Part shown: positions 44,676 through 48,430 of the stretch, piece by piece
How the letters are laid out: each line of letters begins with the position of its first letter
Numbering within the stretch: the first letter of the stretch is position 1
DNA from: an uncultured bacterium
GTDB taxonomy: Bacteria; Bacillota; Clostridia; Oscillospirales; Oscillospiraceae
Direction: 5' to 3'
Assembly: GCA_946548895.1 (NCBI GenBank)
Contig: CAMNQF010000001.1
Coordinates: 1 to 64,000 of the forward strand
Length of the DNA stretch: 64,000 bases
The notes under the pieces: model-generated
What the model saw: the letters and a program-made list of their open reading frames with translations, nothing else
Databases searched by the model: none
What the model was told of the DNA's origin: nothing
Translations under genes and position numbers: made by a program

Positions 44676-46151
44676 TTGGAAAATAAACTGTATGAGGATA
44701 TCGCCCAGCGCACCCAAGGGGATATCTATATCGGGGTGGTGGGCCCCGTGCGCACCGGGAAGTCCACCTTTATCAAACGGTTCATGGAGACCCTGGTGCT
44801 GCCCAAAATCGAGAACGGTTTTCTCCGGGACAGGGCCCGGGATGAGCTGCCCCAGAGCGGTTCCGGCCGGGTGGTGATGACCGCCGAACCCAAATTCGTC
44901 CCCGAGGACGCGGTGGAGATGACTATGGATGACGGCGGGGTATTCTCCGTCCGGCTCATCGACTGCGTGGGCTACATGGTGCCCAGCGCCCTGGGCCAGA
45001 TGGACGGCGAACAGCCCCGGATGGTCACGACCCCTTGGTTTGACCACGAGATCCCCATGACCCAGGCGGCGGAGTACGGTACCCAGAAGGTCATCACCGA
45101 CCACTCCACCATCGGCATCGTAGTCACCACCGACGGCTCCGTCACCGATATCCCCCGGGAGGATTACCTGGAGGCGGAGGAGCGGGTCATCAGCGAGCTG
45201 AAAGGGCTGGGCAAGCCCTTCATGGTGCTGCTCAACTCCGCCCAGCCTTACGGCGAGCGGGCCCAGACCCTCCAGGCGGACATCGCCGAGCGGTATGACG
45301 TGACCTGCCTGGCCGCCAACTGCCTCACCCTGGACGAGGGGGCGGTGAGCGAGATTATCCGGGCGGTGCTCCACGAGTTCCCGCTGAAGCAGATGGACCT
45401 GTTCCTGCCCCCCTGGGTGGACGTTCTGCCCTTTGACCACCCCATCAAGAGCGGCCTGTACGCCATGATCCGGGAGGAGACGGCGGACCTCATGCGCCTG
45501 CGGGACGCGGAGGGGGCGGTTCTGGCCATGGGAGACCGGGACGAGGTGAGCTCCGCCGTACTGGATCGGATGGACATGGGCAGCGGGGTGGTCACCGCCA
45601 CCCTGGAACTGCCCAGAGGGCTGTTCTATTCCACCGTGTCCGAGCGGTGCGGCCTGGAAATCCGGGACGACGGCGACCTCATCGACCAGCTCACCCAGAT
45701 GGCCGCCATGAAGCGCAGTTATGAGAAAGTGGAGGGGGCGCTGGCCCAGGTGGCCGCCACGGGGTACGGCATCGTCATGCCCGACCCGGAGGAGATGACC
45801 CTGGAGGAGCCGGAGATCGTCAAGCAGGGGGGGCGGTACGGCGTGCGGCTCAAGGCGTCCGCGCCGTCCATCCACATGATGCGGGCGGACATCCGGGCGG
45901 AGGTGTCCCCCATCATGGGCACCGAGAAGCAGTCGGAGGAGATGGTGGACTACCTGCTCCGGCAGTTCGAGGGGGACACGGGGAAGATCTGGGACTCCAA
46001 CATCTTTGGCCGCTCCTTCCACGAACTGGTGGGAGAGGACCTGAACGGCAAGCTGAAGCGGATGCCCGAGGAAGCACGGGAGAAGCTGCGGGAAACCCTC
46101 CAGCGGATTATCAACGAGGGGTCGGGCGGGCTGATTTGCATCATTTTATGA
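44676..46151 (+). CDS. spoIVA: Stage IV sporulation protein A (coat morphogenetic ATPase)
   Basis: SpoIVA hydrolyses ATP to polymerise on the forespore and form the coat base layer. 491 residues, matching Bacillus (492). Walker A is GPVRTGKSTFIKRF near 24-37, preceded by IAQRTQGDIYIGVV. DCVGYMVPSA and TTDGSVTDIPREDY follow, and the conserved C-terminus is NEGSGGLICIIL. TTG 44676 is the start: GAGGAGGG is 7 bases upstream, while ATG 44643 lies in the promoter -10. Sigma-E control fits mother-cell expression. A terminator follows. Confidence 0.97.
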   Translation: MENKLYEDIAQRTQGDIYIGVVGPVRTGKSTFIKRFMETLVLPKIENGFLRDRARDELPQSGSGRVVMTAEPKFVPEDAVEMTMDDGGVFSVRLIDCVGYMVPSALGQMDGEQPRMVTTPWFDHEIPMTQAAEYGTQKVITDHSTIGIVVTTDGSVTDIPREDYLEAEERVISELKGLGKPFMVLLNSAQPYGERAQTLQADIAERYDVTCLAANCLTLDEGAVSEIIRAVLHEFPLKQMDLFLPPWVDVLPFDHPIKSGLYAMIREETADLMRLRDAEGAVLAMGDRDEVSSAVLDRMDMGSGVVTATLELPRGLFYSTVSERCGLEIRDDGDLIDQLTQMAAMKRSYEKVEGALAQVAATGYGIVMPDPEEMTLEEPEIVKQGGRYGVRLKASAPSIHMMRADIRAEVSPIMGTEKQSEEMVDYLLRQFEGDTGKIWDSNIFGRSFHELVGEDLNGKLKRMPEEAREKLRETLQRIINEGSGGLICIIL

Positions 46152-46157
46152 AAAGGC

Positions 46158-46196
46158 GGGCGGGGTATGAGCGGAATGCCCCGCCCGAAATTTTTT
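46158..46196 (+). terminator. Terminator after spoIVA
   Basis: GGGCGGGG / CCCCGCCC stem (46158-46165 with 46179-46186), then GAAATTTTTT. Confidence 0.9.
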
Positions 46197-46219
46197 GGAA
46201 AATTTTTGGTTTTCCCCCC

Positions 46220-46248
46220 TTGACAACCGTATCCGTGTCTGATACACT
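46220..46248 (+). promoter_or_regulatory. Promoter driving the tandem riboswitch leader
   Basis: TTGACA (46220-46225), 17-bp spacer, TACACT (46243-46248). The expected start of transcription, about 46255, is right at the 5' edge of riboswitch 1. Confidence 0.8.
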
Positions 46249-46253
46249 GTACC

Positions 46254-46340
46254 CATAACAAGGGCAAACCCGGCGAAAGCCGGCGGCGCAAAACTACAGG
46301 GCCTCAACTGCGGATACGTGGGTGTGGCAGCCAGTTGCAG
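46254..46340 (+). ncRNA. Cyclic-di-GMP-I (GEMM) riboswitch, first aptamer
   Basis: The core has the order expected for GEMM-I: AGGGCAAACC (46260-46269), a GAAA-loop stem (CGGC/GCCGG), GGCGCAAAAC near 46284-46293, CTACAGGGCC, then the P2 region ending GTGGCAGCCAGTTGC (46324-46338). The AGGGCAAACC and GCAGCCAG blocks are the strongest matches. GGCGGCGCAAAA replaces the usual GGGACGCAAAG. P1 is short (TAAC/GTTG). A terminator follows. Confidence 0.82.
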
Positions 46341-46375
46341 ACGGTTCCGTTTTCCGTCTTTCATTGGGCCTGTTA

Positions 46376-46401
46376 GGGTTGCGCCTAGGCGCAACCCTTT
46401 T
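46376..46401 (+). terminator. Terminator between the two riboswitches
   Basis: Perfect 10-bp stem GGGTTGCGCC / GGCGCAACCC (46376-46385 with 46388-46397), loop TA, then TTTT. A second hairpin (TTTTCTTGTG/CACAAGAAAA, 46398-46420) overlaps its T-tract and could act as antiterminator. It is the likely expression platform of riboswitch 1. Confidence 0.85.
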
Positions 46402-46482
46402 CTTGTGTTCCACAAGAAAAGGAGGACCCTGACAACAGGAAAGGAGGGGATGCGGTGGCACCACTGTGTCCGTCTGTTCGTC

Positions 46483-46577
46483 GATTTTCTGAAAAGAGCA
46501 AACCATTCCGAAAGGGTGGGACGCAAAGATATGGGGCTAAGGCGGAGACGCTATGCCTGCCAGTCCGCCAGAATTTC
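46483..46577 (+). ncRNA. Cyclic-di-GMP-I (GEMM) riboswitch, second aptamer
   Basis: Close fit to the GEMM-I core: GAGCAAACC (46496-46504), a GAAA-loop stem ATTCC/GGGT (46505-46517), GGGACGCAAAG (46518-46528), ATATGGGGCTAAGG (46529-46542), then CTATGCCTGCCAG (46551-46563). P1 can form between GATTTTCTG (46483-46491) and CAGAATTTC (46569-46577). It lies 35 bp before the start of the surface protein gene. Confidence 0.9.
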
Positions 46578-46612
46578 ATTTACCTTGAAAACTGAAAAAG
46601 GAGAATGAAATT
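46572..46612 (+). promoter_or_regulatory. Ribosome-site-sequestering inverted repeat
   Basis: AATTTCATT (46572-46580) and AATGAAATT (46604-46612) are perfect complements. The loop between them contains the Shine-Dalgarno site AAAGGAG (46597-46603), and the 3' arm ends at the ATG 46613. The 5' arm overlaps the P1 strand of riboswitch 2. Ligand-stabilised P1 and this anti-ribosome-site helix cannot form together. Confidence 0.7.
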
Positions 46613-48430
46613 ATGGCAAAGAAGTTTTTCCCCAAGGCCCTGTCCGTGGGCCTGTCCCTGGCGCTGTGCGCGGGCATGGTCGCGCCTGCGTTTGCGGCCA
46701 GCTTTACTGACCTTCAGAATGCTATTGATGGCAATGATGGTGGAAAACTTATCGAAGACACTGGCCGTTATGGCTATGCCGAGAAAGAGGACGGGACCTT
46801 TGGTATTGAGGCATGGGACGCAAACGGCACCCGCAACGTTACCCTCAATGAGGATGTTGATCATGAGGATGGCGATGCGGATGGGGGCATTGTCATCAGT
46901 GGAAAAGGTACCAATGTTACCTTGAACATGAACGGTAATACGATTGACTTGAACCCGGGCTCTACACTGGATATTGAAAGTGAGACATTTAAGGATGAGG
47001 CTGGGAATGAGGTAGTTGATGCCAATGTAGGGGCTGTTATTACTGTACGAGGCGGTGCGTCACTGACCATCAATGGAGCAGAAAACGATGGTGAAAAGGG
47101 TATTATCACTGGTGGCAATCACGCAACCCCCACTTTGGGCGCTGGTGGCGGGATTGTTGTTTCCACTGGCACTGTCAATTTGTCTGACGTGTCCGTTGAA
47201 GGCAACAAAGCTGTTGACGGTGGAGGAATTTATGTCAGCAGTGCTTCAGGCAAGGCCAGTGTCACAACAGATGGCGTCAGCGTTTCCGGGAACGTGGCAA
47301 CCAATATTGGTGGCGGAATTCATGTGGGCACAAACAATAAGGGAACTGTTACGCTGAATGATACCGAAGTCACTGGGAACAAGGCTTCCACCGGCGGCGG
47401 TATGGGCATCACTAAGGCGGTAGTAAGTGTGGACAAAGATAGTGTGGTCGCCAATAATATCTCGACTGTGAACGGCGATGACATTGCTACCTATCAAGGA
47501 ACCCTCACCATGCCTGATGCTGAAAAGATGGCCGATGAAAAAGGAAACTCTATCAAACTTAACGAGGACGATAAGCCCATTAACGGTTGGTACTTTGATG
47601 GAGGTACTGCAACGGATAGCGGCTGGGGTGGTAACGGAAAGTATGCCTATTACAAGTACGAGAATATCAATGGAAAGTACAAAGGATGGGCATTCTTTAA
47701 GGCCGCCCACGACCAGTATTTTAACGTGGAGTACACCGACGGCGCGGACGGAACGCTGTTTGAAACTCAGCAGTATGAGGTGGAGAACAAGAACCCCGTT
47801 CCCGTGTTTAGCGGCGGCATCCCGGAGCGCCCCGGTTACACCTTCGCGGGCTGGCTGGTGGACGGCGAGAACTTTGACCCCGCCACCGGCACTGTTACCG
47901 GGACCCTGACCCTGGTGGCCGCTTGGACCCAGAACCCCGCGGCCGTCGATCCCGAGACCCCCGACCTCCCCGACGACACCGGCGAGACCGAGCTGGACGA
48001 CCAGGCCGTGCCTCTGGCCGCGGGCCCTGTGACCCGCGCGGAGTTCATCGACTACCTGTGGCGCCATGAGGGCGAGCCCGCCAGCGACGGCGTGTGCACC
48101 TTCACCGACGTGGCCGAGGATCATGAGTACGTCCTGGCGCTGGCCTGGGCGGAGCAGAACGGCATTGCCGAGGCATATTTGAACGCCGAGGGCCACGAGG
48201 ACGGCACCTTTGAGCCCGATGAGCTGGTCTCCGCGGGTGATGTGCGGGAGTTCCTGGGCAACTTCGCCGGGGTGTTCGGCACCAACGCCGTGGCCGTGGA
48301 TGAGCTGACCACGCTCGCCAGCGATGACGGCGAGGCCGTGCTCAACTGCGACGAGGTCCTTGCCCAGTTCTTTGGCGAGGAGTACACCTCCGCCAAGGAC
48401 CAGGACGACCAGCTGGACCCCGCGGCCTGA
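46613..48430 (+). CDS. Secreted surface protein: beta-helix, InlB-type repeat and SLH-like domain
   Basis: 605 residues. The signal peptide ends near residue 26 (APAFAASF). Residues ~75-260 have the repeated Gly/Asn/Val pattern of a right-handed parallel beta-helix (GGGIVVSTGTVNLSDVSVEGN, GGGIYVSS, GGGIHVGTN). A Listeria-Bacteroides (InlB B-type) repeat lies at ~395-440 (PGYTFAGWLVDGENFDPATG). The C-terminus has one SLH-like domain (VTRAEFIDYLWRHEG, CTFTDVAEDHEYVLAL, AEQNGIAEAYL). Such proteins bind the cell wall. Two c-di-GMP riboswitches precede it. The N-terminal half is much AT-richer than the rest. Confidence 0.85.
   Translation: MAKKFFPKALSVGLSLALCAGMVAPAFAASFTDLQNAIDGNDGGKLIEDTGRYGYAEKEDGTFGIEAWDANGTRNVTLNEDVDHEDGDADGGIVISGKGTNVTLNMNGNTIDLNPGSTLDIESETFKDEAGNEVVDANVGAVITVRGGASLTINGAENDGEKGIITGGNHATPTLGAGGGIVVSTGTVNLSDVSVEGNKAVDGGGIYVSSASGKASVTTDGVSVSGNVATNIGGGIHVGTNNKGTVTLNDTEVTGNKASTGGGMGITKAVVSVDKDSVVANNISTVNGDDIATYQGTLTMPDAEKMADEKGNSIKLNEDDKPINGWYFDGGTATDSGWGGNGKYAYYKYENINGKYKGWAFFKAAHDQYFNVEYTDGADGTLFETQQYEVENKNPVPVFSGGIPERPGYTFAGWLVDGENFDPATGTVTGTLTLVAAWTQNPAAVDPETPDLPDDTGETELDDQAVPLAAGPVTRAEFIDYLWRHEGEPASDGVCTFTDVAEDHEYVLALAWAEQNGIAEAYLNAEGHEDGTFEPDELVSAGDVREFLGNFAGVFGTNAVAVDELTTLASDDGEAVLNCDEVLAQFFGEEYTSAKDQDDQLDPAA

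Follow-up and report, generated by a model that had tools for sequence, protein, structure and literature searches.

The leader of the 605-aa open reading frame (ORF) at 46613–48430 (+ strand) raises the question of what two c-di-GMP riboswitch aptamers, placed in series, do to the expression of a single gene. A search of the window (the whole 64 kb stretch of DNA analyzed here) with Infernal against Rfam 15 at the gathering threshold gave two matches, both to RF01051 (GEMM-I, c-di-GMP-I): aptamer 1 at 46253–46342 (+; 60.3 bits, E 2.6e-9) and aptamer 2 at 46487–46572 (+; 66 bits, E 1.1e-10). Each lies far above the gathering score of 35 bits and thus belongs to the family by covariance score, which bears out the two aptamers of the original prediction. 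As was also proposed, a sigma-70-type promoter (TTGACA-17-TACACT, 46220–46248, +, 10/12 motif match) lies directly 5' of aptamer 1, and inspection by eye shows a TTGACA box ahead of aptamer 1 in each of the five leaders with the full pair. Two promoter-like sites were found in 46100–46700 against 0.4 expected, and the weaker one at 46585–46614 (9/12 motif match) could bypass aptamer 1. The upstream neighbor of the leader is spoIVA. The surface-protein label given earlier to the downstream gene is based on a signal-peptide-like start seen by eye and on weak repeat- and SLH-like matches in Pfam that all fall below the cut-off (Flg_new, 21.3 bits against 27; SLH, 16.9 bits against 20.8).

The two-aptamer leader in related genomes

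When the leader DNA was searched against 42 genomes of the genus, 13 matched at E 0.001. Besides the window, near-whole leader matches at 70% identity were found in G063 (locus L077) and G029 (L078). Among 300 genomes of the family, 20 matched at E 1e-8, with 15 covering aptamer 2 and the start site and five covering aptamer 1 only. A genome of another genus, G335 (the Oscillospiraceae MAG with contig CANQHN010000015.1), has two complete copies (L243 and L244), in both of which aptamer 1 lies some 280 nt upstream of aptamer 2; 600 nt of L244 recur exactly in L103. Homologs of aptamer 1 are thus present at L077, L078, L243 and L244, and the full arrangement is found at five loci in four genomes of two genera. 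For aptamer 2 the scores are 66 bits (window), 75.2 (G063), 59.9 (G029), and 68.8 and 69.8 (G335), all above the gathering score.

Two models were also used, R2 for aptamer 2 with the start-site mask described below and R1 for aptamer 1 with its terminator. At E 1e-8, R2 found matches in 91 of the 400 family genomes; the lower-scoring of these include other kinds of GEMM-I such as the arrays of the window's genome. R1 gave 119–164 bits at four loci of three genomes (G335 twice, G000 and G314), all of which it had been trained on, and no more than 74 bits for the matches that followed. The complete pair is rare: a strong R1 match beside an R2 match was found only in G000 and G335 among the 400 family genomes.

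GEMM-I aptamers also occur here in a different arrangement. On contigs C3 and C11 of the window's genome, arrays of three and two aptamers (L036:3086-3378 and L037:3196-3369, both on the minus strand) each precede a further long ORF whose start resembles a signal peptide. Their aptamers abut or overlap, with no space for a terminator between them, and such arrays look as if several aptamers shared a single expression platform. Relatives have arrays of up to four aptamers in a row, and by eye the base at the ligand-selectivity position discussed below varies (G, A, C) among the aptamers of one array, for example at L045, L050 and L054. Five aptamers (two at L245 and one each at L252, L253 and L254) were assigned to RF03167 (c-di-GMP-I-GGC) rather than RF01051.

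Aptamer 1 resembles a transcriptional OFF switch

Between the aptamers lies an intrinsic terminator stem of 10 pairs with a T-rich tail at 46375–46398 (+); the terminator predicted there is borne out, within limits that differ from the earlier 46376–46401. It is one of three terminator-like stems in 46100–46700, where 1.1 were expected, the others being at 46157–46187 (after spoIVA) and on the minus strand. The 3' arm of the inter-aptamer terminator is a copy of the aptamer core (GGCGCAA in the window, GACGCAAAGCU in G335), so its 5' arm is able to pair with the core. In the minimum free energy (MFE) structure of a transcript ending before the terminator 3' arm, the core of aptamer 1 (46285–46291, +) forms the 5' strand of an antiterminator by pairing with 46379–46385, and CUACAGG (46294–46300, +) extends the helix by pairing with CCUGUUAG at 46369–46376. 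The antiterminator 3' strand (46369–46385, +) overlaps the terminator 5' arm. In L078, CUAAAG with CUUUAG stands in place of CUACAGG with CCUGUUAG. By these predicted pairings, the antiterminator excludes both the aptamer and the terminator, and aptamer 1 resembles a switch that turns transcription OFF. In the unbound leader, the core and the CUACAGG segment would pair with the segment holding the terminator 5' arm and transcription would continue, whereas ligand would hold the core within the aptamer and allow the terminator to form.

The core-to-arm pairing recurs in relatives. A terminator was predicted for 19 of the 27 family aptamers inspected, and all 19 were folded as transcripts ended mid-terminator. 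Between 8.5 and 10.9 core:arm pairs were expected at seven loci, two of them from one genome (the window, G029, G063, both G335 copies, G314 and G216), versus 0–1.4 at the other 12. The duplex also outperformed 1000 shuffled arms (p ≤ 0.006) in six of the seven, this test being read only where the core segment was correctly placed (six of seven; rows L272 and L270a excluded); a control, L276, beat its shuffles as well (p 0.001). At L078 the best duplex of the arm falls elsewhere on the aptamer, and in G216 the core complement extends into the terminator loop. The antiterminator was judged throughout from per-sequence folds, because alignment A4 has these helices out of register.

The energies bear on timing. 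For the window transcript to 46386, the MFE was -57.0 with core and arm paired versus -36.1 with the aptamer constrained, and with this gap of 21 kcal/mol aptamer 1 could respond only to ligand bound ahead of antiterminator formation. In the full-length fold the terminator (-65.8) lies only about 2 kcal/mol below the antiterminator (-63.7). A second hairpin (UUUUCUUGUG/CACAAGAAAA; 46398–46420, +) takes its 5' arm from the terminator U-tract, and by eye a similar hairpin in different letters is present in all five homologous leaders.

A small ORF at 46450–46608, with an SD-like motif and running through aptamer 2, was set aside: by eye, the equivalent frame in L078 ends where aptamer 2 begins, and in L243 and L244 no ATG lies closely 3' of the AGGAGG motif. 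AGGAGG-like motifs at 46420–46450, in the interval between terminator and aptamer 2, occur in all five leaders, with no conserved-looking reading frame by eye.

Aptamer 2 resembles a translational ON switch

The 3' end of aptamer 2 has two possible partners. The shared strand at 46567–46580 (+), GCCA-G-AAUUUCAUU, closes the aptamer by pairing CAGAA (46569–46573) with the P1 5' strand UUCUG (46487–46491, +), on the 5' side of the aptamer. Alternatively it serves as the 5' arm of a start-site mask whose 3' arm is the region at 46598–46617 (+) comprising AAGGAG (the Shine-Dalgarno sequence), AAUGAAAUU and AUGGC. The Rfam model places the GCC outside its helices, and one C of this GCC is, we assume, a ligand contact (Vc2 C92). 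The predicted pairing masks the start in a way that excludes the bound aptamer, as in a translational ON switch, and aptamer 2 looks like one. Unbound, its 3' GCCA and the following nucleotides would pair with the Shine-Dalgarno-to-AUGGC region; bound, GCC and P1 would be engaged and the mask would lose its outer part.

The mask was examined in an alignment of 22 of 25 aptamers. AUGGC was required, which removed L261a and L261b, and L247 was dropped at a contig end; the rows include same-genome pairs. In 22/22 loci, all selected for AUGGC, the start's UGGC is the pairing partner of GCC(A/G) in the aptamer, and the strand that follows the aptamer pairs with the nucleotides separating the Shine-Dalgarno sequence from the start. 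RNAalifold predicts the mask unaided, and 83.9% of cells are paired versus 25.5–46.5% when the strands are slid. Cells changed on both sides numbered 14 versus 8.0 in shuffles, of which 4 in 500 reached that count, while pairs with double changes (4 versus 3.4) and extra pair types (14 versus 14.1) were not above shuffles. The covariation is at columns 111:158 and 117:152, where 7 and 5 sequences had changed on both sides and 6 and 7 were unpaired. The three GC pairs of GCC with the start are invariant and hence show no covariation. Cognate S1:S2 and S2:S3 strands paired better than any of 5000 permutations each, a test that sequence relatedness helps. The proteins of all 22 loci (selected for AUGGC) open with Met-Ala, the GC of the Ala codon belonging to the mask, and the leader RNA may constrain the second residue of the protein.

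Sixteen further loci (L317 and L331–L345) were put through an automatic mask test and nine passed; in three of the nine the UGGC that pairs lies three bases after the AUG. Since the loci were found with the mask-containing model, this is no independent test. The genome of L317 had also given two training rows. Among the others, the stretch examined was cut short at L331 and L333, L335 was mislocated, and L337, L340, L341 and L342 start in different sequence contexts, which by eye seem complementary.

The bound state was modeled in two ways. With P1 forced automatically, spacer plus AUG opened in 20/22 loci, the P1 register being wrong in three (L001, L077 and L078). With P1 named and GCC kept unpaired at 16 of the 22 loci (L242, L245b, L248, L253, L254 and L258 left out), the spacer became more accessible in 16/16 and the AUG in 14/16, an opening that is partly built in; AUG accessibility fell in L077 and L255. 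The Shine-Dalgarno sequence was hardly altered in most of the 16. The modeled mask energy went from -18.1 to -9.3 kcal/mol in the window and from -14.9 to -4.5 in G335. In the window, Shine-Dalgarno accessibility stayed at 0.21 and the spacer opened only to 0.41, and an inner hairpin of -9.3 kcal/mol can remain beside P1. Because of these three features of the model, the ON effect may be weak in the window.

c-di-GMP is the likeliest ligand of aptamer 2

Model position 11, which we take to correspond to the ligand-selectivity position Vc2 G20, is G in aptamer 1 (46263) and A in aptamer 2 (46497). The A is found only in the window's aptamer 2, the other 21 of the 22 aligned aptamers having G; among 114 readable of 131 GEMM-I matches, there are 98 G, 11 A and 5 C. 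On this mapping, A at the selectivity position, a trait of cGAMP riboswitches (GEMM-Ib), is carried in this leader by aptamer 2 only. The earlier assignment of c-di-GMP to both aptamers is qualified to this extent, in that the ligand of aptamer 2 is perhaps not purely c-di-GMP. The three above-cut-off GGDEF proteins of the window's genome (96% complete) carry GHxxGD and not the Ser variant, which presumably marks Hypr enzymes; in a fourth match, below cut-off, no motif is visible. SMODS was searched for in G000, G029, G063 and G335 and not found. According to the accounts in PMC9481103, A at this position is common in c-AMP-GMP binders, and cGAMP is the better-bound ligand of the A-bearing D. 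acetoxidans aptamer. Given the canonical-looking GGDEF proteins and the four genomes that yielded no SMODS, cGAMP as the second ligand was demoted to a rival, and c-di-GMP, perhaps bound more weakly, is the likeliest ligand.

Predicted opposite signs in one leader

Taken together, the sequence and the modeled folds make it fairly probable that this one leader contains two complete GEMM-I riboswitches working in opposite directions, OFF for aptamer 1 and ON for aptamer 2. The expected order, termination first and translation second, is backed by the conserved alternative pairings of the model. The tandem in series likewise stands, while the steeper response once suggested for it does not follow, the predicted signs being opposite. 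If both aptamers sense c-di-GMP, the leader would be an incoherent feed-forward device (band-pass or pulse) instead of a steeper switch. That c-di-GMP stops transcription through aptamer 1 and licenses translation through aptamer 2 of the same adhesin-like gene is a proposal to which we give an even chance. With a shared ligand, mRNA made at low signal would stay silent, would be translated when the signal rises, and would then no longer be made, so that output would be maximal at middle signal levels or come as a short burst. The product of two simple binding curves indeed peaks at middle signal (0.69, 0.39 and 0.12 in three settings) with its largest value where the ON switch has the greater sensitivity, the constants being assumed. 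Switches that act during transcription generally require more ligand than those acting on translation, which would favor a band-pass, or a self-limiting pulse translated from silent mRNA already present as c-di-GMP rises. From the computed aptamers, alternative pairings and conservation we infer the ligand identity, the signs in the cell and the band-pass or pulse.

Tandem c-di-GMP-I systems have been described, in the accounts of PMC9481103 and PMC4759541, as working in one direction, and a same-sign tandem (pseudo-cooperative or bi-mechanism) with a steeper, double-checked response would be the familiar reading. It is unlikely here, since the core of aptamer 1 can base-pair with the terminator 5' arm, which points to OFF, whereas the 3' strand of aptamer 2 would mask the start when unbound, which points to ON. 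The modeled OFF-then-ON order differs from the single direction of a pseudo-cooperative tandem; as for a bi-mechanism tandem, two levels of control are predicted and same-ligand sensing is uncertain for aptamer 2. If the A of aptamer 2 and the G of aptamer 1 at position 11 reflect different ligands, the leader would be a two-signal gate (NOT A AND B), c-di-GMP turning transcription off through aptamer 1 and cGAMP turning translation on through aptamer 2. The tie between this A and c-AMP-GMP/cGAMP binding (as given in PMC9481103) speaks for such a gate, which the GHxxGD motifs, the SMODS result and the G of the other 21 aligned aptamers make quite improbable.

The same A can also be read as a sign that aptamer 2 is decaying or has been retuned in this genus, leaving the leader in practice a single transcriptional OFF switch. 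The altered core of G029 (GGCACATC and GAGTCGC) and the weak predicted unmasking in the window would fit. Scores of 59.9–75.2 bits for aptamer 2 in the window, G063, G029 and G335, all above the gathering score, argue against decay, and we consider it improbable as well. The preferred reading remains an OFF switch followed by an ON switch.

Comparison with known systems

Tandem c-di-GMP-I pairs and bi-mechanism tandems are already known (described in PMC9481103, PMC4759541 and PMC12452182), and PMC9481103 gives 347 doublets and 12 triplets of tandem c-di-GMP-I riboswitches. Its table lists bi-mechanism pairs for SAM only, such pairs not being comprehensively evaluated there, and the words opposite, opposing, incoherent and biphasic are absent from its main text. 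No opposite-sign same-class tandem and no natural band-pass or incoherent riboswitch of this arrangement was found in open-access literature listings, and the listings for GEMM-I in gut Oscillospiraceae held no description of it. What appears to be new here, judging from sequence and folding models, is the opposite signs within one same-class tandem pair.

The tandem c-di-GMP-I systems, including B. thuringiensis Bc3-5, resemble the window in having RF01051 aptamers in series with their own platforms (PMC9481103, PMC4759541), and Bc3-5 sits 5' of surface-protein genes (PMC4759541). As those sources describe them, they are independent one-direction switches giving a more digital response, whereas the platforms in the window differ and their predicted signs are opposite. 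In the SAM-II/SAM-V bi-mechanism tandem, the first riboswitch also terminates transcription and the second controls translation; according to PMC9481103, however, ligand is predicted to lower expression through both, while the window has the c-di-GMP class and OFF then ON. The D. acetoxidans AdoCbl/c-AMP-GMP NOT A AND B gate is likewise OFF then ON, but it joins two unrelated aptamer classes and ligands where the window has the same class twice (PMC9481103). Cd1 (OFF) and pilM (ON) are homologous aptamers of opposite signs in which, by the account in PMC9262584, pairing of binding-pocket nucleotides abolishes binding. They belong to two organisms and two genes and are both transcriptional, whereas both signs are predicted in one leader here.

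The closest idea is Bc1, a c-di-GMP-I riboswitch for which the term incoherent transcription-translation dual regulation is used (PMC11218506); the same paper cites an incoherent S. meliloti SAM-II riboswitch that raises mRNA stability and lowers translation. Yet Bc1 is a single aptamer with a long platform and two terminators, c-di-GMP leads there to sequestration of the start site, the reverse of the window's prediction, and downstream expression is reported as unchanged by c-di-GMP (PMC11218506). Same-class tandems have so far been explained, in PMC9481103 and PMC4759541, as devices for steeper responses. If the reading proposed here is true, two copies of one aptamer in a single leader would also serve bacteria for non-monotonic or pulse-like control.
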